Source of the DNA: a virus
IMG/VR virus record: IMGVR_UViG_3300035204_002230
Coordinates: 1 to 31,599 of that record
Reading direction: 5' to 3' (one strand)
DNA: 31,599 bases
The position numbers were made by a program, and so were the translations under genes. Below are positions 717 to 31,599 of the stretch, piece after piece (positions within the stretch are counted from its first letter, which is position 1; the number at the start of each line of letters is the position of its first letter). The notes beneath the pieces were generated by a model that was not told the origin of the DNA, did no database searches, and saw only the letters and a list, made by a program, of their open reading frames with translations.

Positions 717-785
717 GTTGATAGCCAAATTGTCGATAAATTTGGCGACAAAACTCCTGAACAATTACAATCAATGCTAGGGTAA
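717..785 (+). other. 22-codon frame with capsid-targeting-like peptide, no standard start
   Basis: From GTT at 717 the frame reads (V)DSQIVDKFGDK and ends SMLG before TAA at 783-785, which overlaps the ATG of the second SET gene (TAATG). The peptide resembles the DSQLIWEAY openings of neighbouring genes and sits at the usual distance from a late box, but the first codon is GTT instead of GTG. It may be a rare-start leader, or the former N-terminus of the second SET protein cut off by a point mutation and stop. Confidence 0.35.
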
Positions 786-1138
786 TGGTAGAATTCGGTC
801 CCAGTAACATAAACGGTAATGGCCTCATTGCTACGCGGTCTATACCTGCAGGTACCGAAATAGGTATTTCCCATCAAATTGATGAAAATCTTAAAGGTAT
901 AACTGTAGGTGGGTGGAAAATGAATCGCCCTATAGGCAACTACAATCACTCTTATACCCCTAATTGTTATCTTAAAGATTACAATGACTGCAAGACTTTA
1001 GTTGCAGAAAAGGATATTGCGATAGGTGAAGAACTTACTGCAGACTATACCTTAGCGCTCGAGTTCGAACAACCCATGTCGTGGTTTAAAGGTACACCTT
1101 CATTCAGACAATTCTTTAATGAACAAGAAGATGGTTGA
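785..1138 (+). CDS. SET-domain protein (putative lysine methyltransferase)
   Basis: A 117-residue protein that is almost entirely a SET domain: a GNGLIATRSIPAGTEIG block at residues 11-27, NYNHSYTPNC at 52-61 matching the NHSxxPNC cofactor-binding motif, and GEELTADY at 81-88 with the catalytic-type tyrosine. The motifs are cleaner than in the SET gene just upstream. Known SET domains methylate lysines using S-adenosylmethionine; the substrate here is unknown. ATG at 785 overlaps the TAA of a short frame, so translation may be coupled. The protein lacks the capsid-targeting-like peptide unless the upstream frame is fused to it by frameshifting. Confidence 0.7.
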   Translation: MVEFGPSNINGNGLIATRSIPAGTEIGISHQIDENLKGITVGGWKMNRPIGNYNHSYTPNCYLKDYNDCKTLVAEKDIAIGEELTADYTLALEFEQPMSWFKGTPSFRQFFNEQEDG

Positions 1139-1564: not shown

Positions 1565-2341
1565 ATGAGTGAAGAAAAAGAACTTAGAACACAAAAAGAA
1601 ATCAATGTTGACATTGCTCTTAAAGAAGCTGAAGCTCGCAAAATGGAAGCTGATGCTAAAAATATTGAAGCGATGGTTCGGAAAAACGAATTAGAAGCTG
1701 ATAAAGCTGCTATTGAACTCACATTCAAGCAGATGGACTTGGTTGTCAAAGAAGAGAAGCGCGCTAAAGAGAAAGCTGCCGACGAAGAAAACTTCGTGTA
1801 CCGATTCGGTAACTCAGTAACTGACGGATCTGTCAACTCATGTGTAAAGAAGCTTACAGAGTGGAGTCGACTGAACCCTAAGTGTAACATGGAGATTATA
1901 TTCTCATCTCCTGGTGGTGGTATCATTGAGGGCTTTGAGCTGTTTGATCATATACAGCACTTACGCAATCAAGGCCATCACATTACTACTGGTACACTAG
2001 GTATGGCTGCATCGATGGCTGGCATCCTACTACAAGCAGGTGACACACGCTGGATCGGTCAGCAAGCATGGCTTATGATCCATAGAGCAGCCTTTGGCGC
2101 ATATGGTAAAACATTTGAAATTGAAGATGAGGTTAAGTTCGTTAAACGAATTGAAGAGCGTATCTTAGACATCTTTACTAGTAGATCTAATCTCACTCGC
2201 AATAAGATTAAACGTAACTGGGAGAGAAAAGACTGGTGGATCAGCGCAGAAGAGTCTGTCGAACTCAAACTAGTAGATGAAGTAAGAGCAATTTTACCAG
2301 AACATTCTGTAAATAAGAAGAAGAGGAGAAAGAAGAAATGA
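1565..2341 (+). CDS. ClpP-like serine protease with N-terminal coiled coil
   Basis: A 258-residue protein. Residues 1-75 are charged and heptad-like (likely coiled coil), absent from ordinary ClpP. From about 77 the ClpP/crotonase fold appears: SSPGGG at 114-119 (oxyanion strand), GMAASMAGI with nucleophile Ser150, MIHRAA with His173, and ERKDWWIS with Asp223. The spacings (23 and 50 residues) fit the ClpP triad. The C-terminus is a lysine/arginine tail. ClpP peptidases degrade proteins delivered by Clp ATPases; phage ClpP relatives can also act as head-maturation proteases. A ClpC-like ATPase is encoded at 28318-30786, making a partner plausible. The stop overlaps the next small frame (ATGA). 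Confidence 0.85.
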   Translation: MSEEKELRTQKEINVDIALKEAEARKMEADAKNIEAMVRKNELEADKAAIELTFKQMDLVVKEEKRAKEKAADEENFVYRFGNSVTDGSVNSCVKKLTEWSRLNPKCNMEIIFSSPGGGIIEGFELFDHIQHLRNQGHHITTGTLGMAASMAGILLQAGDTRWIGQQAWLMIHRAAFGAYGKTFEIEDEVKFVKRIEERILDIFTSRSNLTRNKIKRNWERKDWWISAEESVELKLVDEVRAILPEHSVNKKKRRKKK

Positions 2342-3052: not shown

Positions 3053-3631
3053 ATGTACAACTTAAAGCTTTTAATAATAAGTACTGTACTAATCGTTTGT
3101 GGAGGGTGTAGTACGCTATTACCTAGTAAGTCTACTAGCTCACAAGCACAATGGAAATCATATCAAGATATTGAAACCCTCGCTAACCATATACATGCAG
3201 GTCAAACACTGGATGATCTCAAAACTCTCGGCATCGATGTTAAAAATACTCCCAATATGGAATCACTTACTCATTTAGATATTGCCAAACGGTTTGGTCT
3301 AATTGGAAGACGAGATGAATCTCTTGTTATCCCCGCGGGTGTTAAAAAGTTAATGGATGCAGCTGAGAAAGGTAAGGGTTATGAATTAACCGTTGAATCG
3401 ACCCAACATAACCGGCTTGGTAGCTTTTGGGCTGATTTTCTACAATTCAGAAAAAATGTGCACACTACAGGATGGACATTTTCTATGCTCTTAATTGTAG
3501 TAGACGATAAAGTAGAGTATGTTCTTTATAAAGGAAATCCTAACATTGATAAGTTAGAAAAGGAAAAGAACCCTCTCGGGCCCTTTCAAAAGATCAGCGG
3601 TTATATTATAGTTGACCTATTAGCCGATTAA
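3053..3631 (+). CDS. Putative lipoprotein (192 aa)
   Basis: The N-terminus has a short basic region, a hydrophobic stretch (LLIISTVLIV) and CGGCST, which resembles a signal peptidase II site with lipidated Cys19, although the -3 position (Cys) is not canonical. The mature part is soluble, with ETLANHIHAGQTLDDLKTLGID and a late segment likely to be beta-rich (FSMLLIVVDDKVEYVLYKG). No enzyme motif seen. It is probably anchored in the host envelope. The gene overlaps the convergent minus-strand gene by four bases. Confidence 0.6.
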   Translation: MYNLKLLIISTVLIVCGGCSTLLPSKSTSSQAQWKSYQDIETLANHIHAGQTLDDLKTLGIDVKNTPNMESLTHLDIAKRFGLIGRRDESLVIPAGVKKLMDAAEKGKGYELTVESTQHNRLGSFWADFLQFRKNVHTTGWTFSMLLIVVDDKVEYVLYKGNPNIDKLEKEKNPLGPFQKISGYIIVDLLAD

Positions 3632-5010
3632 TTTAACTCTTCTGGGGAGCGTTTAATCTGACCATATAGAGGGTCTTGAGGATCCATTTCTCCATATGGA
3701 TTACCTTCTTGTGGAAACTCATCAGCACCATAATCAGCTGGTGGTCTGTCACCTCGTTCAACGGCTTTATCTTCAGCATGGTCTACCATCTCATCAAAAT
3801 GAGACTCTAAGTGGTCTTCAACAGCTGCTTTTAACTCATCGCGCTCATCTAAATACTCATCGTAATCTAAGCGCTTAGGTAGTTTACCAGCTTTTTGCAT
3901 GTCATGTATAACCATTCCTGCTAAATCATCTAACAAGTCGGGATGTACATCTTTCAAACTGTTTACTTTTGCATGTAGAAGTTCTTGATCAAGCCAATCA
4001 GCACCGGCTTTGATTACATCGTCACTATACCATTCAATAACTTCTTCAGCACTCCAGTCAGGAGATTCACCGAAACTATTTTCATTAACAGCAGCTTTGC
4101 TACTATGATCTTCATTTTGCTCTGCAACACCACCGAATACCTTTTTGAGTGCACTCATTATCTTACTTGGTATACCATTTTTTTTCTTTTTTAGAATACC
4201 AACTTTGACTTTAGGTTTCTTGTCATCTAATAGATCGTCGTTCATCTTAATAGCAACCCCGTGAGCATGGTCACCTGGTACACCACATCCACAATCTTCT
4301 TTTACATTAGCTGATTCATAAGGTACATCGTCTTCAGGGTTAAGATCATCTACATCAACTGGCTCTTCTTCACCATTAATATGACTAAGGTCACTGATAT
4401 GTACAGCAACTCGATCACCTTGTTCTAGTCCATCCTCCATGTCTTCAGACAATTCAATAATACCATGCGTCCCAGCTGGCGACATCTCAATTACTTCACC
4501 TTTACCGCCACCCACGCGTGGGTTAATTTCTACTAAATCTCCTTCTTCAAACGATTCTAACTCTTCTCCTTCATCATCAAGCTCTTGTGGCTCTACCCTG
4601 GCCAATGGCTCTAAATCTTCAGGTCCTTCGTATTGACCATGAGAAAGGTCGTCTTCTTCTCCAATTTTGTAAGCAGCGTTTACTGCAACTTGAGGTCGCT
4701 GCCCGCCTTGTTGCGCTGCTAGTTGAGCCTTGGCTCTTCTCATGGCTTCAGCCTCAATGTTTGCTTGAGCGTTTAGATTCAAATTCGGATTCATAGCTAC
4801 CCGTTTGTTGACCTTCGCATTCCAGCGCTTGACAGCATTCCATACGCCCGTCTTACCTTCGAGGTCTTTTATAGGTTTGTCATAATCGATCACTTCCTTT
4901 TGGCCGCCAAACAATCCTCGGCGATGACCGAATTTTCTTTCTTCAGCCTCATTTACTACTGCTTCTTTGGTGTAAGCTTCCCAGATTAATTGTTCGTCAT
5001 GTGGTTTCAC
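3628..5010 (-). CDS. Acidic protein with capsid-targeting-like N-terminus (460 aa)
   Basis: The frame is open to 5124, but the likely start is GTG at 5010, five bases after a late box, giving M-KPHDEQLIWEAY. That opening matches genes at 217, 20133 and 21790 and contains I-W-E, the T4 prohead-protease pattern (L/I)xE. A basic segment (about 20-60) is followed by an Ala/Gln-rich helix, a very acidic region, an SH3- or KOW-like stretch (GDLVEINPRVGGGKGEVIEM), a CGCGVPGDHAHG cluster and an acidic C-terminus with DEYLDERDELKAAVEDHLES. It may be an internal head or core protein; no direct homologue is recognised. Confidence 0.7.
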   Translation of the reverse strand: MKPHDEQLIWEAYTKEAVVNEAEERKFGHRRGLFGGQKEVIDYDKPIKDLEGKTGVWNAVKRWNAKVNKRVAMNPNLNLNAQANIEAEAMRRAKAQLAAQQGGQRPQVAVNAAYKIGEEDDLSHGQYEGPEDLEPLARVEPQELDDEGEELESFEEGDLVEINPRVGGGKGEVIEMSPAGTHGIIELSEDMEDGLEQGDRVAVHISDLSHINGEEEPVDVDDLNPEDDVPYESANVKEDCGCGVPGDHAHGVAIKMNDDLLDDKKPKVKVGILKKKKNGIPSKIMSALKKVFGGVAEQNEDHSSKAAVNENSFGESPDWSAEEVIEWYSDDVIKAGADWLDQELLHAKVNSLKDVHPDLLDDLAGMVIHDMQKAGKLPKRLDYDEYLDERDELKAAVEDHLESHFDEMVDHAEDKAVERGDRPPADYGADEFPQEGNPYGEMDPQDPLYGQIKRSPEELN

Positions 5011-5015
5011 GTAAG

Positions 5016-5022
5016 TATTTAT
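5016..5022 (-). promoter_or_regulatory. T4-late-like box ATAAATA (minus)
   Basis: On the minus strand ATAAATA is followed by CTTAC and then GTG at 5010, so a leaderless or nearly leaderless mRNA is expected. Confidence 0.6.
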
Positions 5023-5029
5023 TGTCAGA

Positions 5030-5049
5030 TTATACCAAATTTGGTATAA
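5030..5049. repeat. 20-bp perfect palindrome
   Basis: TTATACCAAA is followed directly by its reverse complement TTTGGTATAA. The right arm runs into a plus-strand TATAAATA box, so a dimeric protein bound here would cover that promoter. Operator, origin element or cruciform are possible; which is not known. Confidence 0.6.
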
Positions 5050-5052
5050 ATA
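5045..5052 (+). promoter_or_regulatory. Exact T4-late box TATAAATA (plus)
   Basis: This is the full T4 late consensus. Transcription would start near 5058, just before the structured element at 5063-5138, and run antisense to the RadA-like gene. There is no plus-strand gene here. Confidence 0.4.
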
Positions 5053-5062
5053 ATTAAAAGAG

Positions 5063-5138
5063 CCCGCCAAAAGGTGTTTCATGAAGGCTAAACTAACCTG
5101 TCGTAGGTTCTCTCTACGCACCATAGCCTTTTGGCGGG
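5063..5138 (-). ncRNA. Three-way-junction RNA element or complex terminator
   Basis: A perfect 12-bp closing stem (5063-5074 with 5127-5138) encloses two hairpins: 5102-5106 with 5114-5118 (CGTAG/CTACG, 7-base loop) and 5085-5090 with 5094-5099. The second contains C-A on the plus strand but a G-U wobble on the minus strand, so the minus-strand RNA folds better. It lies 17 bases after the RadA-like stop and is followed by CTCTTTTAATT, so it could simply be an elaborate 3' end or terminator; a small RNA or protein-binding element is also possible. Confidence 0.45.
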
Positions 5139-6147: not shown

Positions 6148-6624
6148 CTAAAACACTCGCTCAGCATCAGCCATATCTTTGATGTATATGTTGAAGCCAC
6201 CTTTATCAAATTTTCGTGGCCGTTTCTTTTCAGAATTCTCAACTCTTTCTTGGCCTAGAATTCTAACTTGGTCAACAGACATCATATATATCTCTTTGAT
6301 ATCAGCACTGTCTCTTAGGACGAAATAGAATTTATCTGTTTCCTCAAGCTTGTTCAATTGCTTCCAATGAAATTGCCATGATGAGCCTCCTGACCGGATG
6401 TTAATAGTCTTATATTCTACAGGTGTACCAGTGTGAGTATATGCATCTGGTCCCTGTGTCTTATTGCTCCATCGATGTCCTAATAATGCAGCCGTTAAGA
6501 GCTCTATATGACCACCGTTATAGAAGATGTCCGTTATTCGTTCGTTTTGTATCTCACTTGCTAACTGTTGTACTTCATTTAGCAGTGACTGAAATTTTTG
6601 CAATTTGCGTGTTTTCATTTTCAC
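6148..6624 (-). CDS. PD-(D/E)XK-like endonuclease
   Basis: A 158-residue protein with an N-terminal helix, HIELLTAALLGHRW (Glu41) and GPDAYTHTGTPVEYKTI, where P59-D60, Glu70 and Lys72 form a PD-x(9)-ExK arrangement typical of restriction-type nucleases. WQFHWKQLNK and a FYFVLRD strand follow, as in type II restriction folds. Recombination, repair or host-DNA degradation are possible roles. It lies just upstream of the RadA-like gene and has its own sigma70 promoter with the shared TTCCTC spacer. Starts at ATG 6624 and ATG 6618 are both possible. No specific family can be named from sequence alone. Confidence 0.55.
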   Translation of the reverse strand: MKMKTRKLQKFQSLLNEVQQLASEIQNERITDIFYNGGHIELLTAALLGHRWSNKTQGPDAYTHTGTPVEYKTINIRSGGSSWQFHWKQLNKLEETDKFYFVLRDSADIKEIYMMSVDQVRILGQERVENSEKKRPRKFDKGGFNIYIKDMADAERVF

Positions 6625-14703: not shown

Positions 14704-15135
14704 GTGAAAGACGAATTTGACCGTATAGCTGGTTTGATCGGATCAAATCTACGTGAGTATGGGTTTGAGTTACAAGCTTATTCCTGGAGTGAATTGGTTT
14801 GGTCATATCAACGCCCGAGTAAACACTTTGCTGTTACTATACAGAGAAAAGGCGCGCGTAACGACCCTACTCACATGACCCCAGCACGAGGCAATTGGGA
14901 TGATTATGAACAATTAGCAGTCATTGCATATGCTGATAAAAAACGTTTAATGAATTGGAATATCGAAAGATCTGAACTGGAGCCAAATGATCCTCATTTT
15001 AGCGAAAGACAGGTGAGATATGTTATAGATGAGATAACAAAACTATTTAAGAAGTATATGTCTGCAGATGAGCGGTCGCACGCTGAATCAACATTGCCAC
15101 CATTTAACTTATTCTACCGTGACACTCTTGGCTAA
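14704..15135 (+). CDS. Hypothetical protein (143 aa)
   Basis: A soluble protein beginning MKDEFDRIAGLIGSNLREYG, with a beta region (SWSELVWSYQRPSKHFAVTIQRKG) and a helical end (RYVIDEITKLFKKYMSADER). No known family recognised. The GTG start is chosen from the late box. It converges on glmS and overlaps its 3' end by 27 bases. Confidence 0.6.
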   Translation: MKDEFDRIAGLIGSNLREYGFELQAYSWSELVWSYQRPSKHFAVTIQRKGARNDPTHMTPARGNWDDYEQLAVIAYADKKRLMNWNIERSELEPNDPHFSERQVRYVIDEITKLFKKYMSADERSHAESTLPPFNLFYRDTLG

Positions 15136-16899
15136 ATGACGTGGTCGGTCAACATTATATTTGTGTTGTTGTGCCATATACATACTAAAGAACTGCAATG
15201 GGATTACAGCTAGTATTGGTTGAAGATAGTCAGGTGCTTTAGGTAGATATATAATATCATCATATGTATCTTCCGGAAAATCTAACCCCTCTTGAGTTAT
15301 AGCAATTATATGACTATCACGAGCCATAATCTCCTTCATAGTAGATACATTCTTCTCGAACAACTCTTTCTGAGATGCGATATATATGCAAGTAGCATGA
15401 TACCCGATCGCTGCTAATGGTCCGTGCTTGAGTTCACCCGCAGGGTATCCGTGACACTCTACATAAGCTAACTCTTTCAGCTTTAATGCACCCTCAATAG
15501 CTATAGGATACATTAGTTGTCGACCTAAGAATGCACAACTCCGCATCATTGACCATTTAGCAGATAGAGTTTTACACTGAGTACATATATCTAATGTCTT
15601 TTCAACTAAAGCGGGGAGCTTTCTAAGCTGAGAGATATATCTCTTTGCTTGTACTTTGCTTAAGTTGTGCTTTCTACCAATATAGATAGACAACATAATC
15701 AGGATTGTTAGCTGTGATGTAAATGCTTTAGTTGATGCAACAGATATCTCAGGACCAGCATGCTGATATATACCCATATTAGTTAACCGCGCAATAGAGC
15801 TAGCAACAACATTAGTAATAGATATAATCATATGGCCTTGAGCTTGAGCCTCTTCAATAGCTGTTAATGTATCTAACGTTTCACCTGACTGGCTGATAGC
15901 TACGATTAATGTACCATCTTCTGTTGGGGTGTTCTTATATTTGTATTCTGACGAATACTCTACACTAGCAGGTATCCCAACAATAGACTCTACTAGATAC
16001 TTTCCTACCAACCCTGCATGATAAGCTGTACCGCATCCTAAGAACAAAACTCGTCTAACTTTCTTTCTCAGCTTAATACCACCAAACAAAATGTTAGTAA
16101 AGTCTTTGCTAAACCTACCACGCATAGCATTTCTAATAGCTACAGGCTGTTCTCGTATCTCTTTCTCTAGATATGTCGCATACCCTTCTTTGTTATTTGC
16201 AGTATATTTATGATCAACGCTAGATATTTTGGGCCTCTCTACAACTTTATCCGATTTATATATGCGAAGATCTTCCGCTGTAACTATTGCTACTTGATCA
16301 TCCTCGAGGTATATTACGCGAGAAATCTCTGGAGGTAGAGCATATGTATCACTAGCAATGTATGTCTCTGTCTCATCTTTGTCTATACCTACTACTAGCG
16401 GAGAACCTCTACGCGCAGCTACGATTGTCTTAGGATCATCACGATGCATAACAGCAATGCCATACGTACCTTCAACCTTCTCTAGTGCTCTTGCGACTGC
16501 TTTGCCTAGATCTAAACTATATTCATCAGCAATTAGATTTGCAATAACTTCGGAGTCTGTGTCTGATTTCAGGTTGTAATCAAATTGATGAGCATTCTCA
16601 ACTACACCATTGTGCACTACTACAATCTTACCATCATTACTAATATGAGGATGTGCATTTTTAACATTTACTATTCCATGGGTGGCCCATCTAGTATGAC
16701 CGATACCAATAGTAGCTTTTGATTTAGATTTGCCTTTGAGATTGTCAGGCGCGCCAACCTTCTTTATTGTCTTGAATTTGTTTCCATCTATGACAGATAT
16801 ACCACATGAATCATAACCTCTATATTCAAGCTTCTTTAAGCCGTCATAAACTTCGTTATACGCCGATTTATTACCTATATACCCGAATATACCACACAT
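15109..16899 (-). CDS. glmS: Glutamine-fructose-6-phosphate aminotransferase
   Basis: A full-length GlmS (596 residues; bacterial enzymes are about 600). The glutaminase domain starts MCGIFGYIG with the N-terminal nucleophile Cys2, then RGYDSCGI, HTRWATHG and SDTDSEVIA. Two sugar-isomerase (SIS) domains follow, with ISQSGETLDTL, STKAFTSQL, KLKELAYVECHGYPAGELKH and the C-terminal DRPRHLAKSVTVE. The enzyme makes glucosamine-6-phosphate from fructose-6-phosphate and glutamine, the first step to UDP-GlcNAc. As a phage gene it would supply amino sugars for glycosylation or envelope chemistry; no glycosyltransferase is visible here. A sigma70-like promoter lies at 16907-16934. Confidence 0.95.
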   Translation of the reverse strand: MCGIFGYIGNKSAYNEVYDGLKKLEYRGYDSCGISVIDGNKFKTIKKVGAPDNLKGKSKSKATIGIGHTRWATHGIVNVKNAHPHISNDGKIVVVHNGVVENAHQFDYNLKSDTDSEVIANLIADEYSLDLGKAVARALEKVEGTYGIAVMHRDDPKTIVAARRGSPLVVGIDKDETETYIASDTYALPPEISRVIYLEDDQVAIVTAEDLRIYKSDKVVERPKISSVDHKYTANNKEGYATYLEKEIREQPVAIRNAMRGRFSKDFTNILFGGIKLRKKVRRVLFLGCGTAYHAGLVGKYLVESIVGIPASVEYSSEYKYKNTPTEDGTLIVAISQSGETLDTLTAIEEAQAQGHMIISITNVVASSIARLTNMGIYQHAGPEISVASTKAFTSQLTILIMLSIYIGRKHNLSKVQAKRYISQLRKLPALVEKTLDICTQCKTLSAKWSMMRSCAFLGRQLMYPIAIEGALKLKELAYVECHGYPAGELKHGPLAAIGYHATCIYIASQKELFEKNVSTMKEIMARDSHIIAITQEGLDFPEDTYDDIIYLPKAPDYLQPILAVIPLQFFSMYMAQQHKYNVDRPRHLAKSVTVE

Positions 16900-20132: not shown

Positions 20133-20993
20133 ATGCGCGATAGAGACTCTCAACTTATATTTGAACGATATTGTCACGGTATAATTTCTGAAGAAATTGC
20201 CGACCCTGTAGCTTGGGATAGAGGAGGTATAATAAAATTAAATATTACTGGGCATGACCTTGAATTTAAAATAACCGGCAAAAACAGCGACAAAAATAAC
20301 AACTGGTACTTTAATATAGTACCTATGAAGGACTACAGTTCACTTGGCCCGATAGCAAACATTGGAACCAGTCCTGGTGACGGGGAGAATGCCGCTGCGA
20401 AGGAAATATTATACAATACAAAAACACCCATTAACGTATATAAACAAGTTCTTACAGGTCAAGAATTCCCTAAGAATGCACCAACTGCAACTGTAAAAGT
20501 GGTAGATTATAACTCAGGAATAGCTACTGGTGGTGGTACTGGTGGTGGTACTGGTGGTGGTACTGGTGGTGGTACTGGTGGTGGTACTGGTGGTGGTACT
20601 GGTGGTAGTGCTGGGGGTGCAGTTACTAGTGGATCTCGCGGAAGAGGTAGACATCAAGGACTATGGCACGACGATCCAAAGTATAAATATGGCTTAGGTG
20701 CACAACTTGCAAAAAGAGGAATGTTTGCAAAAAGTGACTGGGGGAATCGATTAGGTACTGGTGTGATCGCGAACAAGGCTGAACAAATGTTCCAAAACTT
20801 GTTAGCTCCTCGAAATAATGAAAAACGTACAGGAGTATCAAGATACGCGACCACGCCACAGGACCGCGCGGCTGCCGCCCGTCGACCAGAACCGGGTAGT
20901 AAAATGCGTCATGGGTGGGAAGGGCCTGAAAGAGAAACTCGCAGAGGTAGAACTAGGTATGCTACATCTGCAGATGTGCGACGTGGGGCTTAA
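20133..20993 (+). CDS. Gly-Thr-repeat protein with capsid-targeting-like N-terminus (286 aa)
   Basis: Starts MRDRDSQLIFERY, the same opening as proteins at 217 and 5010, with I-F-E matching the T4 prohead-protease pattern. Residues about 25-125 are a compact domain (KLNITGHDLEFKITGKNSD). Residues about 132-157 are TGGG repeats from a 12-base tandem repeat. The C-terminal 130 residues are basic (SGSRGRGRHQGLWHDD, RRPEPGSKMRHGW, ERETRRGRTRY), suited to DNA or RNA binding. I infer a DNA-associated internal head protein. It overlaps the convergent gene at 20990 by four bases. Confidence 0.65.
   Translation: MRDRDSQLIFERYCHGIISEEIADPVAWDRGGIIKLNITGHDLEFKITGKNSDKNNNWYFNIVPMKDYSSLGPIANIGTSPGDGENAAAKEILYNTKTPINVYKQVLTGQEFPKNAPTATVKVVDYNSGIATGGGTGGGTGGGTGGGTGGGTGGGTGGSAGGAVTSGSRGRGRHQGLWHDDPKYKYGLGAQLAKRGMFAKSDWGNRLGTGVIANKAEQMFQNLLAPRNNEKRTGVSRYATTPQDRAAAARRPEPGSKMRHGWEGPERETRRGRTRYATSADVRRGA
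20526..20609 (+). repeat. 12-base tandem repeat (six exact copies plus one variant)
   Basis: The unit ACTGGTGGTGGT is repeated without change from 20526 to 20597, followed by a variant copy. It encodes TGGG repeats. The lack of silent differences suggests recent slippage expansion. Confidence 0.9.
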
Positions 20994-21790
20994 TAATCAC
21001 TCATTGAACTAGAACCTAGCCCGTAACCACCAAGTTCTCTCTCCCAATAATCGTCCGCTGCATAGCGAGAATCTTCAACTTCTCCCCCTACATCAACAAC
21101 TTTGTCTTCTGTATCTTCTTCCTCCTCTGGAATAAAGATACCATCACTTTGAAGCAGTTCGTTAGCTAGTGTTTTAGCTTCATCAAGAGACATCTCAGCT
21201 CTTAAGACATTAATAATATCTCTACCGGTTGCAGAAAATCCACCACCAAATTTTTGTAACAGTAAATCATGAGCTTTGTAGGCATCAGAATCAGGAGTAA
21301 CTCCTGACTCGCGATTAATTTCGTATGTATGTCTGTATTGAAGGTCAACCGCGCGCTCAACACTTTTCTCAACTTCTTTCTCAACTTCTTTTTCGTCAAC
21401 ATCATTGATGGTTACTTGTTGAGTTGCACCATCTATAGAAATTATTTTTAACCGCTTTAGGGCATTCGTAACAACACGAGATACATATCCAGCATTAGCT
21501 TTACCAATACCAGCTGAATCTCTAATTGACTGAATAATATCTACTCTAAACTCTTTGAATGTACCGTCATAATGACTATTTTCATGACTAGATAAAAAAG
21601 CTTTAACAGCGTCAACTACGTCATTTATAAGCTCCGGAGTAGGTACTTGATATTTCTTAAGTCTATCAATTTCATCACTATCAAATTGAGCAGCTACATC
21701 ATCTGTATCCCAAGCTTCACCAGGGTCTACAGGAGCTTCATATATTTTTCTATAAGCTTCGAACAATAAATTGCGGTCGAGATCTTTCAC
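20990..21790 (-). CDS. Hypothetical protein with capsid-targeting-like N-terminus (266 aa)
   Basis: Opens MKDLDRNLLFEAYRKIYEAP: L-F-E fits the (L/I)xE cleavage pattern, and MK-x(5)-LLFEA resembles T4 internal-protein signals. The body is helical, with DEIDRLKKYQVPTPELINDVVDAV and GKANAGYVSRVVTNALKRL (helix-turn-helix-like), a coiled stretch (DEKEVEKEVEKSVERAV), and an acidic then Tyr/Gly/Ser-rich end. GTG 21790 follows a late box by five bases. Probably a core or packaged protein; no homologue named. Confidence 0.65.
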   Translation of the reverse strand: MKDLDRNLLFEAYRKIYEAPVDPGEAWDTDDVAAQFDSDEIDRLKKYQVPTPELINDVVDAVKAFLSSHENSHYDGTFKEFRVDIIQSIRDSAGIGKANAGYVSRVVTNALKRLKIISIDGATQQVTINDVDEKEVEKEVEKSVERAVDLQYRHTYEINRESGVTPDSDAYKAHDLLLQKFGGGFSATGRDIINVLRAEMSLDEAKTLANELLQSDGIFIPEEEEDTEDKVVDVGGEVEDSRYAADDYWERELGGYGLGSSSMSDY

Positions 21791-24517: not shown

Positions 24518-24918
24518 TGGTGGAGCAGGCGGGAGTCGAACCCGCGTCCTTAAAGCAACTTCTAATAACTTCTACACGCTTAGTCACCCTTTCGGATTCG
24601 GTTGTGTGGGATCTAAGGTGACAAACTCCCACACAACCTAGCGTAATACTTCGGATGGACCCTCGCCAGGGTTACCATACTGCAGGTTGTGTTTGCGCCA
24701 TATAACCTACAACCGTTAGCTATACGACGTTCGCCTAATTAGGCGAGCGCAAGCTCTCGAGAACCTTTCGTAGCTTCGAATTTCTCCGCTACCTTCTCAA
24801 AGAGCCCTAATACCTCATTCTTGGCATTTAGTGTTGTTTCCGCTTTTTAACGAGGCCAACGAAACCCTCGGCGTGCAATCAATAGCGATCAACAATAAGT
24901 CGAATCCATTACTGCCCC
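24518..24918 (-). ncRNA. ssrA: Transfer-messenger RNA (tmRNA), one-piece
   Basis: The 5' end GGGGCAG and GGATTCGAC, and the 3' end GGTTCGACTCCCGCC followed by CTGCTCC and encoded ACCA, make the tRNA-like part with a 7-bp acceptor stem. Around 24846-24865 the minus strand has GTTGGCCTCGTTAAAAAGC, as in bacterial tmRNA before the tag. The resume codon is GCC (24823-24825). The tag has 28 codons, beginning AKNEVLG, containing FEKVAEKFEATKG, and ending ELALA before TAA (24739-24741), which sits in the usual stem CGCCTAA/TTAGGCG. Pseudoknot-like repeats follow. tmRNA rescues stalled ribosomes with SmpB and tags the product for Clp-type proteases. A 28-residue tag is long (E. coli has 10). Confidence 0.95.
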
Positions 24919-25210: not shown

Positions 25211-26149
25211 TTATTTAATCAAAATGCACGGATCGTTTGGCTCATAATAAAGTAAAAATGGAAAGTTCTTTTGAACATCATCACGTTTCTTTCGCCGCTT
25301 TTCTTTGTCCCCGCTACCAAACGAGGCTCCAGCATCTTCTACCGGAAGCTTTGCTAGGGTCTCTTTTGAAGGCATTGGAACTTTTGGATCAAGCGCCCAT
25401 AACAAATTGTTCCTTTCTGCCCAATCAACCATTCTTCGAATGGGTACGATTAAATTAAATGTCTCACCTGCACCTCTAACAATCATACCTATATAGCGAC
25501 CGTCCTTCTTAAGATAAACACCACCACCAGATGATCCCGGGAAAGCTGCAACAGTTGTCTGATCAAATACATGCTTATTAAGTTGAGGAATCAATCGACC
25601 ATGTTGTGAATATATTCCGTCAGTCATTGAATTTGAACCCATTTGACCGAGCAATGAACCTACATGCCATAAATCAGTTCCAAGCTTAGGGAGCTCTTTA
25701 TCTAAATAAAAGCTGACCGAATCTTTAACAAATCCGACTTTACGAACCTTTAGTAATGCCAAATCATGACCATCTTCAGAATTAGAATACTTAACCACCT
25801 CAGCATCAAGCTCTAGCCGACCGACAGCGCGCCCATTTTGCCGAATTACTTTAATAATCTTCGCATCCTTAAACTCGACTACGGTTCTAGGTGCACCATT
25901 AATAATAACTCTGCGCTCCGAACGCAAATTGTCAATTACGTGCGCAGCTGTCCAAACAAAATTAACCAAATCTCCATTTTTATCTTTTCGTGTAAATATG
26001 ACACCTGACCCTTCTCCAGACGACCATTGAGATTCAGAACGAATGGTTACAGAAATATTCTGTAAGTAAGTTGCAGTTGGCTTTTCTTCACCGGCGAATG
26101 ATATTGTCGCGATGAGTAACGACATGATAGTTGCTTTGATTAACTTCAT
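25211..26149 (-). CDS. Secreted trypsin-like serine protease (312 aa)
   Basis: ATG 26149 gives MKLIKATIMSLLIATISFAG, a cleavable signal peptide, so it is exported. The chymotrypsin-fold motifs are intact: WTAAHV with His70, HDLALLKV with Asp129 and FPGSSGGGV with Ser207 (GxSGG). A C-terminal extension (about 245-312) is rich in Lys, Glu and Pro. Periplasmic DegP-like proteases share the fold, but there is no PDZ domain. In a phage this could cleave host envelope proteins or aid release or exclusion; the target is unknown. It ends five bases before the Cys-rich gene. Confidence 0.8.
   Translation of the reverse strand: MKLIKATIMSLLIATISFAGEEKPTATYLQNISVTIRSESQWSSGEGSGVIFTRKDKNGDLVNFVWTAAHVIDNLRSERRVIINGAPRTVVEFKDAKIIKVIRQNGRAVGRLELDAEVVKYSNSEDGHDLALLKVRKVGFVKDSVSFYLDKELPKLGTDLWHVGSLLGQMGSNSMTDGIYSQHGRLIPQLNKHVFDQTTVAAFPGSSGGGVYLKKDGRYIGMIVRGAGETFNLIVPIRRMVDWAERNNLLWALDPKVPMPSKETLAKLPVEDAGASFGSGDKEKRRKKRDDVQKNFPFLLYYEPNDPCILIK
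25212..25219 (-). promoter_or_regulatory. T4-late-like box ATTAAATA (minus)
   Basis: Five bases before ATG 25206 and overlapping the protease stop codon. Confidence 0.5.
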
Positions 26150-26156
26150 ACCCAAC

Positions 26157-26231: not shown

Positions 26232-27245
26232 CTATTCAACCAATTCGGCAACTTTGTCAAACTTCTTAGTAGTCTGAAGTAAGCGCAATCCGCGTTGCAT
26301 CATTTGGTCAGCCGGTCCACCCATTAGGCTAGATACCATCCGGCGCTCAGCTGCTTGCCGACCACCCTTTTCGAGCTTGCCGATGTTGTTGTGGTGATTG
26401 ACATACTCAGTTAGACCGTTGAGTGCATCCCAACGCGTTGCTCCAAGGTTACCTGCACCATTAGCAAACAGATCAACAATCTTTTCGCGACGGTTAGAAA
26501 TTCGTGACGTTGCACGAACTTCAATCTCCTTACCATTCTCGTCCTTCTTACGCTCTGGATCAGGAAGAAGAATTGAAGTGAACCCACGACACTCATCAGA
26601 AGTCATCTTGACCTTATCAAGCTGATTAGCAATCTTCTCGAAAGACTGCAATCCACGTAAAGCAGCATGAAAGCTATCTTTAGCTTGATTGAGACGATTC
26701 TCCCAATTCTTAGTATGAGAGATCCAGTAATCAGACTCATTCGCATTCTGCATAATAGTACGTAACTGGTTATTACAAAAGATCCGTGATGCCATTCCGA
26801 AGTATGCATTACGTTTAGTACCATCGTTAGTACCGAGAGCCATGATGCGATTTTCTACCTTGTCATCTGGCCGCGACTTAAGTGAGAAGTTGTTGGACAG
26901 CTTTGCGCTAATCCAAGCCTTCTTTCCACCATCAATTAAACCTGCGCCCTCATATTGAGCGCCGAACTCCTGGACCATCTCATGGAACGGACGGAACATC
27001 TCGTCCATAGGAATGGAGGTGTAACGTTTCCGCATCACTGCGAAATTCTGAAGCGTATCAGAACGGCGAATAAGAAAATACCCAGGGACTTCATCACCCT
27101 CTGGGGTGTGTGCTGGGACCTTCTCGACATCGAAGTCGAAGCCTGCCATTTTCATAACTTCATCGAAGTCAGATGCTTTGCTAATGTCTACGCCGATCCG
27201 ATCGTCCAGCCTTACTAATTCAGTTTCTCCTGTAAATGTACTCAT
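26232..27245 (-). CDS. DUF932 family phage/plasmid-like protein (337 aa)
   Basis: A DUF932 protein: an N-terminal region with GYFLIRRSDTLQNFAVMRKRYTSIP, a central GLIDGGKKAWISAKL segment, an NRIMALGTNDGTKRNAYF stretch and a CNNQLRTIMQNAN block. These match the family, which is common in phages and plasmids; its role is unknown (a link to DNA metabolism has been suggested). The coding bases look more GC-rich than those of its neighbours. It is a single-gene unit between a sigma70-like promoter (27274-27302) and a strong terminator, implying early or middle expression. Confidence 0.85.
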   Translation of the reverse strand: MSTFTGETELVRLDDRIGVDISKASDFDEVMKMAGFDFDVEKVPAHTPEGDEVPGYFLIRRSDTLQNFAVMRKRYTSIPMDEMFRPFHEMVQEFGAQYEGAGLIDGGKKAWISAKLSNNFSLKSRPDDKVENRIMALGTNDGTKRNAYFGMASRIFCNNQLRTIMQNANESDYWISHTKNWENRLNQAKDSFHAALRGLQSFEKIANQLDKVKMTSDECRGFTSILLPDPERKKDENGKEIEVRATSRISNRREKIVDLFANGAGNLGATRWDALNGLTEYVNHHNNIGKLEKGGRQAAERRMVSSLMGGPADQMMQRGLRLLQTTKKFDKVAELVE

Positions 27246-27851: not shown

Positions 27852-28346
27852 ATGCTTGTAATTAATCTAAAACCGAGTGACAGAGCTATAAGATATTGTA
27901 AAAAAGACAACATCGAGTTAACTCGAGTACAAGCGGTTCTAAATTTTATTGCTCAATACATTGATAAACGTAAAAAGATTGAAATAGTCAATATGTCTTT
28001 AGACATAGATTGTCGAAAAGCGGATAGCGAGTATAATTTTCAGAGTAAACATATTCTTATTGCAGGGATCACCGAAAAACATCGAAGAGGTAGTACCAGA
28101 GAAGGTAGACTAAAATATCTTTTCGAACATCTCGTCCATGAATTTAGACATTGTATGCAGGAAGTGATATTTCATCGCGATGCATCAGAAATTACTTATG
28201 ATTCAACAGACGACGCCGAATATGCAGACAACCCATTAGAAATAGATGCAAATTGGTTCGAGCAAAAATTTGCTAAAAAAGCATATCACCTTTACCGGTC
28301 ACTACGGAAAGCTAAAGTTAAGAACGCTGACGTGTTTTACGAATAG
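27852..28346 (+). CDS. HExxH zinc-metallopeptidase-like protein (164 aa)
   Basis: The centre reads LFEHLVHEFRHCMQEV: HEFRH at 96-100 is an HExxH zinc motif with catalytic Glu97. About 30 residues later NPLEIDANWFE offers Glu130 as third metal ligand, as in gluzincin-like families. The flanking regions (VNMSLDIDCRKADSEYN; helical C-terminus) are unassigned. It may cleave a host or phage protein, or be a fold relative without protease function. The only gene on the plus strand in this part, it converges with the ClpC-like gene, overlapping by 29 bases. Confidence 0.65.
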   Translation: MLVINLKPSDRAIRYCKKDNIELTRVQAVLNFIAQYIDKRKKIEIVNMSLDIDCRKADSEYNFQSKHILIAGITEKHRRGSTREGRLKYLFEHLVHEFRHCMQEVIFHRDASEITYDSTDDAEYADNPLEIDANWFEQKFAKKAYHLYRSLRKAKVKNADVFYE

Positions 28347-30786
28347 GCTTCTTCTTAAATTTTATATCAGATCCTGATGCAGTACAGATAATAGTATCCC
28401 CGGATTTATATTTGTCAGTTAATATTATATCTGCAAATTTAGTTTCAAACAATCGCTGCATTGTACGGTTCAGTTCTCGTACTCCATATTTTTCACTATA
28501 ACCTTCTTCTAAAAATAATTTTTTCGCAGCGCTATCCAATGTCACCGTTATATTATAGTGTTCTTTTATCCGACCTACATACTCACGAAAATTTATATCT
28601 ATAATCATCTTAATATCATCTTCTGTCAATTGGTTAAACACAACAATTTCATCAATTCGATTTATAAACTCAGGCTTGAATTCGTTTCTAACAGCTTCTA
28701 AGGCCTTTTCATGGCCTAACTCTTTTTTCTCTTTATCAGTTGGTGTTACGAACCCTAGAGGTGTTGGTGATTCAACTTGTTGGGATCCAGTATTGGTAGT
28801 CATAACAACAACAGTATTTTTAAAGTTTATAACTCTTCCCTGACCATCTGTAACTTTACCTTCATCGAGAATTTGTAACAAAATATGTAGTACTTCTGGA
28901 TGTGCCTTTTCAATTTCATCAAATAGTACTACTGAATATGGAGACCGACGAATACGTTCTGTCAACCCTCCTCCTTTATTATAGCCAATATAACCTGGAG
29001 GGGAGCCTACCAGTTTTGAAATTGCATGGCCTTCCATCAGTTCAGACATATCAATCTGTATAAGCTTTTCTTTACTGTCAAACAATTGACTAGCTAGCAT
29101 TTTAGCCAAATATGTTTTACCTACACCTGTTACTCCTAAAAACAGAAATGAACCTATAGGTCTATCGGGGTTTTGAATGTTAACAGCTGAGCGCTTAAGT
29201 GAATTACTAATACATTTTACAGCACCGGATTGACCAATAACTGACTCACTTAAAACATCGTACAACTTTAATATCTTCTTCTTATAACTAGTTTGTGTTG
29301 TTGCTATCGGTATTTTAGTTATCGATGAAATTATATGCTCTATATCTTTTTCAGTAATTGTAGTAGACTTTTTTTTAGATTCAGTACACGTACTGGCTAA
29401 TTGATCCCTTTCCCCTATACATTCCTTTTCTTTATCGCGATACTTGCAAGCTTCTTCAAATTGCTGACCTTTGATAAGACTCTCTTTTTTTGACTTATGT
29501 TCTCTAATTTTATCTTTCAGGTGTCGGATCTTTTGGACAACTTCATCTACTTGATGAGTTGCAGCGCCAGCTTCATCAATTAAATCGATTGCTTTATCAG
29601 GTAAATTTCTATCTGTCAAATAACGAACTGATAAATCAACAGCTGCTGTTAGACATTCAGGTGTATATTTACAGTGATGGTATTTTTCATAGCTATGCTT
29701 AATACCTTTCAATATTTGTATTGTATCAAGCACAGTAGGCTCATCAACTGTAATTCGCTGAAACCGGCGTTCTAGTGCACTATCATTTTCAATTGATTCT
29801 CTATATTCGTCAGGTGTTGTTGCTCCTATGCATCGCATTTCTCCACGAGCTAGCGCTGGTTTAACAATATTGCTAGCATCCATAGCACCCTCGGCAGATC
29901 CGGCTCCAACTATCATATGAATCTCATCTAAAAATACAATTATATTTTTATTCTTCTTAATTTCACCAAGAACTGCTTTAAGTCTCTCTTCAAATTGACC
30001 TCTATACTTAGTACCTGCAATCATTGCAGGTAAATCTAAAGATACAATATGCTTAGACGATAATATCTTAGGAACTTCACCATTAACAATTTTCTGAGCC
30101 AAACCTTCAACTACAGCTGTTTTACCAACACCTGCTTGACCAACTAATATTGGATTGTTTTTTGTTTTTCTACAAAGTATTTGTATCAATCTCTTAATTT
30201 CAGCATCTCGTCCAATTACCGGGTCAAGCTTTTTACGAGATGCTAATCTCGTCAAATCAACGCTATATTTTTGAATATTTTTTAACGTTAGAATCTCATC
30301 ATCGTCTCGTTCGAATTGCTTGTCTAGAATACTATCTTCTAGATTGCCTCCAACTTCTTTGTTAATGATACGTTTTACTGATTTAAAATTAACACCTAAA
30401 CTTACTAGTATATTGTTTGCAATCCCATCAGGCTCATACAACAATCCTAAAAATATATGCTCAACGTCAATACTAACCCTGTCTAACTTTTTCGAACACT
30501 GATTAGCTAATTCAATAACCTTCTCAACACGAGGAGTAAATGAAATTTCATCAATAGATATTGGATCATCCCCTTCTTGAGATATATTGTCATACACAAT
30601 CATCCTAAGCTGTTCTATGTCAATATTAAGATCTTCCAAAATATCAGTAATAACACTATCACCAATATTAAGTAGCCCTAATAACAAGTGTTCAGTACCT
30701 GCATATCTATTTTTGAGCAGTTGAGCCTCTTTTTTAGCTATTGACAAAGACTGTTTTGCTTTTGGAGTGAGCTTGTATGTGTTCAC
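28318..30786 (-). CDS. ClpC-like AAA+ unfoldase (822 aa)
   Basis: A complete HSP100: two N-terminal Clp repeats (about 1-145; [18 protein letters not shown]), first AAA domain with Walker A GQAGVGKT (216-223) and Walker [10 protein letters not shown] (282-290), a UVR-type segment ([13 protein letters not shown], about 443-455) as in ClpC and in place of the longer ClpB coiled coil, then the second AAA domain with GVTGVGKT (551-558), LFDEIE (621-626) and [15 protein letters not shown]. Residues 677-679 are LGF, in the loop where ClpC/ClpA/ClpX carry the VGF/IGL/IGF that docks on ClpP. So it should thread proteins into a ClpP-type peptidase. GTG 30786 follows a late box by five bases. It ends with a basic tail. 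Confidence 0.9.
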
Positions 30787-30835: not shown

Positions 30836-31599
30836 TCATTTATACGGCAAATTGTCCGGCCAGTCATCTAACGGGTCGTGAATGTATCTGGTATTGTCAT
30901 CAGACACTTCTGGTACAAGTATAAACTCTGGGGTAATTGTATTACCATTGATATCTGTCATGGTAAAGCCGGCACCAGCTGGTTCACATACCGTAATACT
31001 CTCACTACTACTGTCAACCATACCGCTCCATTGACTGACAATCTCGTTGCCAACTACAAATACAAATAACTGCTGCTCTCTGATTATATATGCACCAGCA
31101 GTACCAGCTGTATAACGCTCGTGTATAATAGATTGAAGTCCACCGACACTACTATACTCCTCTGTTCTTAGATGTATACCTACCGCTACGTCCGGAGTAA
31201 TTAATGTAGATATTGAAGATTGTAGAATAACATCAAGATCTTCGTACGGTACAATTATATTACCGATAAATCTTGGATTTTGAGCCTCAATAGTTAACAT
31301 AACATTATTTTTACCATCGGGAGTTGTATACAGCTGGGTATCAATAATTTTTAGACTCTTGTAGTCTGTAACATGCGATTTACCTACATTAACGTTGAGC
31401 GTGTAAATATCATGCTCTAAATTTGTTTTGTAACCTGATATTTTAACACTATACGTCGTTACGTAATCGTTAGTTGGATTAAACGTGTGCGATATTGACT
31501 TAGATGACAGTGACCAAATATCAGTAAGATGTTGGATAATTTGTTGATCAGATCCATCACCAAAATCAACAATAAACTTTGTGTAGTGATATGAAGTAT
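30836..31599 (-). CDS. PKD-domain structural protein, 5' end outside window
   Basis: The frame is open to the window edge, giving 253 visible residues; the true start lies beyond 31599. The visible N-terminal part has FIVDFGDGSDQQ and later SISHTFNPTNDYVTTYSVKI, the FGDGS...HTF...Y signature of a PKD (Ig-like) domain. Then comes a beta-rich region (LEHDIYTLNVNVGKSHVTDY) and a C-terminal part ending DDWPDNLPYK. PKD domains occur in phage tail, baseplate and capsid-decoration proteins and bind surfaces. A structural role is inferred; the exact part is not known. Confidence 0.65.
   Translation of the reverse strand, partial: TSYHYTKFIVDFGDGSDQQIIQHLTDIWSLSSKSISHTFNPTNDYVTTYSVKISGYKTNLEHDIYTLNVNVGKSHVTDYKSLKIIDTQLYTTPDGKNNVMLTIEAQNPRFIGNIIVPYEDLDVILQSSISTLITPDVAVGIHLRTEEYSSVGGLQSIIHERYTAGTAGAYIIREQQLFVFVVGNEIVSQWSGMVDSSSESITVCEPAGAGFTMTDINGNTITPEFILVPEVSDDNTRYIHDPLDDWPDNLPYK

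Follow-up and report, generated by a model that had tools for sequence, protein, structure and literature searches.

Three genes on one viral DNA fragment raise the question of whether a phage brings its own route for degrading tagged proteins. The fragment, called the window here, is a linear IMG/VR virus record of 31,599 bases. A first-pass annotation had proposed that a ClpC-like unfoldase, a ClpP-like protease and a tmRNA encoded on it act together as one proteolytic machine. We therefore asked whether each part is what it seems, and whether the parts belong together.

The unfoldase gene (28318-30786, minus strand) has a GTG start and an open frame of 822 codons. The product contains two Clp_N stretches (PF02861, E 1.6e-21), Walker A and B motifs in both AAA+ modules, and an M-domain region of 86 residues. 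For nearly all ClpCs in the alignment this region spanned 82-90 residues, against 147 in the ClpB-like protein L058; the M-domain of the window protein is of the short kind, unlike the long one of ClpB. The top match among solved structures was Staphylococcus aureus ClpC (E 1e-219), with residues 5-810 of the query aligned to residues 5-803. The ClpP-docking loop has at its tip an LGF tripeptide (residues 677-679; 28750-28758, minus strand), aligned with the AGF of S. aureus ClpC (residues 671-673; PMC12521514). The AGF loop, known as the P-loop, enters a hydrophobic pocket of ClpP, and mutation of the loop motif abolishes the interaction between ClpC and ClpP (PMC12521514). As [LIVM]GF was kept in nearly all aligned ClpC relatives and was absent from the ClpB-like proteins L058 and L265, the LGF of the window protein is more than a chance match. 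The open frame, the alignment with S. aureus ClpC and the conservation of the motif bear out the earlier description, and the gene encodes a genuine full-length ClpC-type unfoldase.

The first-pass annotation had also regarded full Hsp100 unfoldases as unusual in phages. This view is contradicted by at least 598 relatives in IMG/VR, by the existence of a dedicated PHROG (phrog_4871), and by the high conservation of ClpA across most Rak2-like jumbo phages (PMC6102473; see also PMC7824862). The nearest cellular ClpCs, mostly from Verrucomicrobiota, were 45-47% identical to the window protein. In a tree, the window ClpC grouped with the phage ClpCs L008, L022 and L052 (support 93). It was separate from the ClpC pair of two other phage records, G017 and G019, and also lay outside a clade of 29 phage ClpCs that includes those of huge phages with canonical ClpP. 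Since the tree sets the window protein apart from both, ClpC has probably been gained more than once in phages of the window lineage.

The ClpP-like gene (1565-2341, plus strand) encodes a 258-residue serine protease of the PHROG 94 type, which matched the Clp protease family PF00574 with an E-value of 1.5e-25. Its closest relatives were found in 22 IMG/VR records, at 55-67% identity. The catalytic triad described in the first-pass annotation, Ser150-His173-Asp223, is intact in the window protein and invariant in 19 orthologues. Alignment of these orthologues showed that residues 1-76 form a charged coiled coil whose length varies. In an AlphaFold model made with the 19 orthologues, residues 10-75 (1592-1789, plus strand) were predicted as one long helix, in place of the axial hairpin and first helix of ClpP. 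Overall the model was poor, with a mean pLDDT of 66 and values below 50 in much of the catalytic region. A search of the PDB with this model gave only ClpP among the matches listed, with TM scores of at most 0.42; this modelled fold confirms the family of the protein and does not bear on the state of its pocket.

The alignment was more informative about docking. Six pocket positions of S. aureus ClpP (49, 50, 53, 61, 91 and 115), occupied there by L, F, A, Y, I and L, read T, E, R, E, G and G in the window protein. Among the orthologues the position of Phe50 was Glu or Gln, and the residues at positions 53, 61 and 91 were invariant. Positions other than Tyr63 were assigned from what we take to be the ADEP/IGF pocket. 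Tyr63 is a docking-pocket residue of S. aureus ClpP (PMC8182300). A helix with an SRL(L/M) motif before the ClpP body was absent from the window protein; 13 canonical ClpPs from other huge-phage contigs retain an SRLMMER-type helix and most of the hydrophobic pocket. Against the curated ClpP model TIGR00493 the window protein scored 72 bits, far below the cut-off of 308.6, and the superfamily-wide Pfam cut-off was the only ClpP cut-off that it passed. Thus both the ClpC docking pocket and the N-terminal gate do look lost, an argument that draws on sequence, the AlphaFold model being poor. Because the pocket residues are changed, the first helix is absent and the score is far below curated cut-offs, a standard ClpC-ClpP interface appears unlikely, and the protein is probably not the partner of the window ClpC. 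The two phage proteins could have co-evolved a different interface.

The first-pass annotation had named a head-maturation protease without docking pockets as a finding that would speak against its proposal. In this alternative the protein would be unrelated to ClpC, and its best PHROG match, PHROG 94, is labelled 'head maturation protease'. The gene context argues otherwise. In the 211-kb record G017 the ClpP-like gene has the gene for a 654-residue protein on one side and DNA polymerase genes on the other, and its neighbourhood, which includes a DnaB-like helicase, a primase and a nuclease, is not a portal and capsid cassette; ClpC directly follows the polymerase and the terminase is elsewhere. 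In Mycobacterium phage Thibault, portal and capsid genes flank that of the head protease, gp9; gp140, a homologue with 33% identity to the window protein over 226 residues, is encoded separately, beside a DNA polymerase exonuclease gene. The window protein scored 84.7 against the model of ClpP-related head proteases, NF045542, for which the cut-off is 120. The T4-type head protease PF03420 had no match in the 22 records, a result without weight because the positive control was also silent. Searches by phmmer with gp15, gp17-21 and gp23, which serve T4 in head formation and packaging, gave no relatives in G017, in the 158-kb record G004 or in the window. The position of the G017 gene in a replication module and the separation of gp140 from the head genes therefore indicate that the PHROG 94 label is misleading for this subgroup. 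A head-maturation role is very improbable; the divergence of the pocket, judged from sequence, is the part of that alternative that stands.

We then considered how often the three genes occur together. Among the 22 records with the closest ClpP-like proteins, a tmRNA was found over the cut-off in 10 and ClpC in four. Two of these four ClpCs were placed in the tree, and neither was orthologous to the window ClpC. All three genes were present in the window and in G017, G018 and G019, and most fragments were without one of them. In G017 the ClpP-like and ClpC genes are on one strand and 4.6 kb apart, flanking the DNA polymerase genes. The 15 closest ClpP-like records, all of them fragments, were without ClpC (15/15), including contigs of 158 kb and 100 kb; the 158-kb contig, G004, has the ClpP-like protein, a trypsin-like protein and a tmRNA.

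A search with the trypsin-like protein encoded next to the window ClpC and tmRNA identified the closest relatives of the window, G073-G077. All five had ClpC orthologues (60-64% identity). The order ClpC, small genes, DUF932, trypsin-like protein, tmRNA is the same in the window and in G073, G074 and G075, of which G073 and G074 are near-identical to each other. These three records end before the position of the ClpP-like gene of the window, so that its absence from them is uninformative. No tmRNA was detected in G076 and G077, which keep ClpC. ClpC and the tmRNA are on one strand in the window block, and as genes with unrelated functions lie in the block too, their linkage may reflect general collinearity only. 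Co-occurrence was thus found in part: all three genes are together in G017-G019 and the ClpC-tmRNA block is conserved in three relatives, but the distribution is patchy.

These results bear on the original proposal, that phage ClpC has the phage ClpP-like barrel as its docking partner and breaks down proteins that carry the tag of the phage tmRNA. In its favour are the presence of all three genes within 31.6 kb, the arrangement in G017 and the recurrence of the set in G018 and G019, and the probable repeated gain of ClpC by phages of the lineage. The pocket and gate of the ClpP-like protein are not preserved, however, its 15 closest relatives come from records without ClpC, and the ClpCs of the window and of G017 and G019 are not orthologous. 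Each proposed part is real and the ClpC-tmRNA block is conserved, but the ClpP-like protein is poorly suited to be the peptidase of ClpC, and we consider the three-part machine unlikely.

Several other products of the region were noted. The trypsin-like protein (25211-26155, minus strand; PF13365, E 3e-11) is an HtrA-type peptidase, apparently exported, with a signal peptide recognized by eye; few proteins of the lineage are as well conserved (53-76%), and it had no match in the annotated phage collection. The DUF932 protein (26232-27245, minus strand) was assigned by domain search and neighbourhood comparison. A 164-residue protein with an HEFRH (HExxH) motif, seen by eye, is encoded convergently with ClpC and overlaps its 3′ end (27852-28346, plus strand). 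It was found at 48-79% identity in five relatives with orthologous ClpC (79% in G073), matched nothing in Pfam or PHROGs, and is a possible metallopeptidase. Elsewhere in the window are a complete glucosamine-6-phosphate synthase, GlmS (15109-16899, minus strand), which is above the NCBIfam cut-offs and also present in G075 (56%), and for which a pattern scan gave no relatives; two small SET-domain proteins (PF00856) encoded side by side (217-708 and 785-1138, plus strand); and a PvuII-like restriction endonuclease fold (6148-6624, minus strand; PF09225, E 5e-8). An N-terminal motif like DSQLIWEAY, reminiscent of T4 capsid-targeting sequences, is common to the products of 217-708, 3628-5124, 20133-20993 and 20990-21790; a scan with a strict pattern of this type gave just a single match in each of the window, G073 and G075.

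The tmRNA gene (24518-24918, minus strand) was confirmed by ARAGORN and by a full-length match to RF00023 (positions 1-374; 157 bits, E 3e-62). It is a one-piece gene with an encoded CCA, and comprises a tRNA-like domain, a body and a tag of 28 residues. The tag reading frame (24739-24825, minus strand) encodes AKNEVLGLFEKVAEKFEATKGSRELALA followed by a stop codon, and this peptide is conserved in G073 and G074 (GKNKVSELFAKVADMFQATPKQELALA) and in G075 (GNKMSDLFNVVADKFEAAESEELALA). Eleven tmRNAs from related phages without a detected ClpC have a different tag of 30-35 residues with a conserved core, DMAPSLAEADEILAKFG; the tag families differ between phages with and without ClpC. In G018-G020 the tags are 38 residues long. 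Across the lineage (the window and the tmRNAs of L114-L123 and L342-L349) tags are 21-38 residues in length, most of them 26-35, which is unusually long. Differences between tags at first, second and third codon positions numbered 240, 263 and 729 in one comparison and 21, 19 and 43 in another, the pairs not being independent and no p-value being attached. As the differences concentrate at third positions, the tag sequences indicate selection as a peptide and not only as RNA. A search of 11 records from the window lineage, which are incomplete contigs, gave no SmpB, and host SmpB would therefore be the simplest partner of the tmRNA.

Conservation of this kind also bears on whether ClpC and the tmRNA were acquired from a host and are carried as passengers with no dedicated role. 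The patchy presence of ClpC and the mostly verrucomicrobial origin of its nearest cellular relatives would fit such a capture. Against it, ClpC is held at 60-64% identity with its motifs intact in five relatives, and the tag peptides are conserved by codon. We regard this reading as improbable.

The first-pass annotation had assigned late-type boxes, and hence late action, to ClpC and the tmRNA. The box TATAAATA occurs three times in the window, against 4.8 occurrences expected. In the 200 nt that precede the ClpC gene the sole near match, TATAAATG, forms the final codons (Tyr-Lys-stop) of the ORF at 30836-31300, and no box with up to one mismatch was found in the 200 nt before the tmRNA. T4-type late promoters were therefore rejected, there being no excess of boxes and the box before ClpC being coding.

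The reading that we prefer, at about even chances, is that the LGF loop lets phage ClpC dock on host ClpP, that the tmRNA adds a phage tag using host SmpB, and that the ClpP-like protein is a non-structural protease that works separately. Docked phage ClpC would redirect the host peptidase during infection, presumably on a compatible host ClpP. The tmRNA, as a copy of the ribosome-rescue RNA, would add the phage's own tag to stalled chains, and either host Clp proteases or phage ClpC docked on host ClpP might then receive the tagged chains. The ClpP-like protein would have a ClpP fold without serving ClpC, and may act near replication. Canonical ClpP was not found in the tested records of the window lineage, which would suit a ClpC that works with no peptidase at all, serving replication or the assembly of virions as a chaperone or disaggregase; assembly or translocase roles have been proposed for ClpA and ClpX of jumbo phages (PMC7824862, PMC6102473). 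Without docking, however, the LGF motif would be expected to decay as it has in the ClpB-like L058 and L265, and it is retained. A peptidase-free role for ClpC is accordingly unlikely.

A complete tag-and-degrade set appears to be present elsewhere among huge phages. Of 50 records chosen for ClpC, 13 had canonical ClpP and 10 had a tmRNA over the cut-off; SmpB was found in 5 of 28 records tested. ClpC, canonical ClpP, tmRNA and SmpB were all present in G024, G025, G030, G048 and G065, the tmRNA of G025 falling just under the gathering score. A gap of 114-119 bp separates the end of canonical ClpP from the tmRNA that follows it in G025, G030 and G048 (L271-L273), and one of 689 bp does so in G034 (L274); in G065 (L276) the SmpB match starts about 45 bp after the tmRNA. 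As the ClpCs of G025, G030 and G048 are closely related, the adjacency of ClpP and tmRNA may be one ancestral event. Nearly all large contigs tested carry a terminase and are therefore taken to be phages; none was found in G070 or in the 55-kb G067. In 16 ClpC-bearing contigs of more than 100 kb, the association of canonical ClpP with tmRNA was not significant (9/3/1/3, Fisher test, p = 0.12). No tmRNA lay within 2.5 kb of canonical ClpP in LR745206, LR756502 or Xanthomonas phage XaC1, and the part of the literature that was covered held no description of ClpP beside a tmRNA.

A tentative extension, which we put forward as a minority view, is that some huge phages bring the full route (ClpC, canonical ClpP with a docking pocket, tmRNA and SmpB), the tmRNA gene having ClpP or SmpB as its immediate neighbour, and that the window lineage has a reduced version, in which ClpC and a long conserved tag, acting as a dedicated degron or adaptor-binding helix, would deliver proteins to host ClpP. 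Phages that bring their own unfoldase and protein tag would choose which proteins are destroyed in the infected cell, and would also decide the recycling of their own stalled proteins. Phages with docking-competent ClpP beside tmRNA and SmpB, set against phages that keep the motor and tag only, offer the contrast for a clean test. The results are also a warning that among the phage ClpP-like proteins labelled as head-maturation proteases there is a non-structural group.

Parallels to the separate parts can be found in known systems. The Omegavirus protein, Thibault gp140, resembles the window ClpP-like protein in its coiled-coil-like N-terminus, ClpP body and lost pocket positions, and its gene adjoins that of a DnaQ-type exonuclease, which is also found near the ClpP-like gene of G017; it differs in its 33% identity and in its third catalytic position, which reads N in the alignment. 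Phage-encoded tmRNAs like that of the window have been reported in 402 of 18,146 phages (PMC9004378), and together with SmpB in huge phages (PMC7162821). Unlike those huge phages, the window lineage had no SmpB that we could find, and its tags are mostly 26-38 residues long and conserved as peptides. Rak2-like jumbo phages (Atu_ph07, PMC6102473; AP-J-162, PMC11242549) also combine Hsp100 unfoldases with Clp family proteases, and AP-J-162 has a tmRNA. They belong to another lineage, in which Atu_ph07 has ClpX and ClpS as well, and their Clp proteins were described without a test of docking, gene linkage or tag. The closest counterpart of the window ClpC is that of the S. aureus MecA/ClpC/ClpP system (PMC12521514). 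The window protein differs from it in being encoded by a phage, in whose lineage no canonical ClpP was found, and shares with it the domain order, the short M-domain, the hydrophobic-G-F loop and an alignment over the full length.
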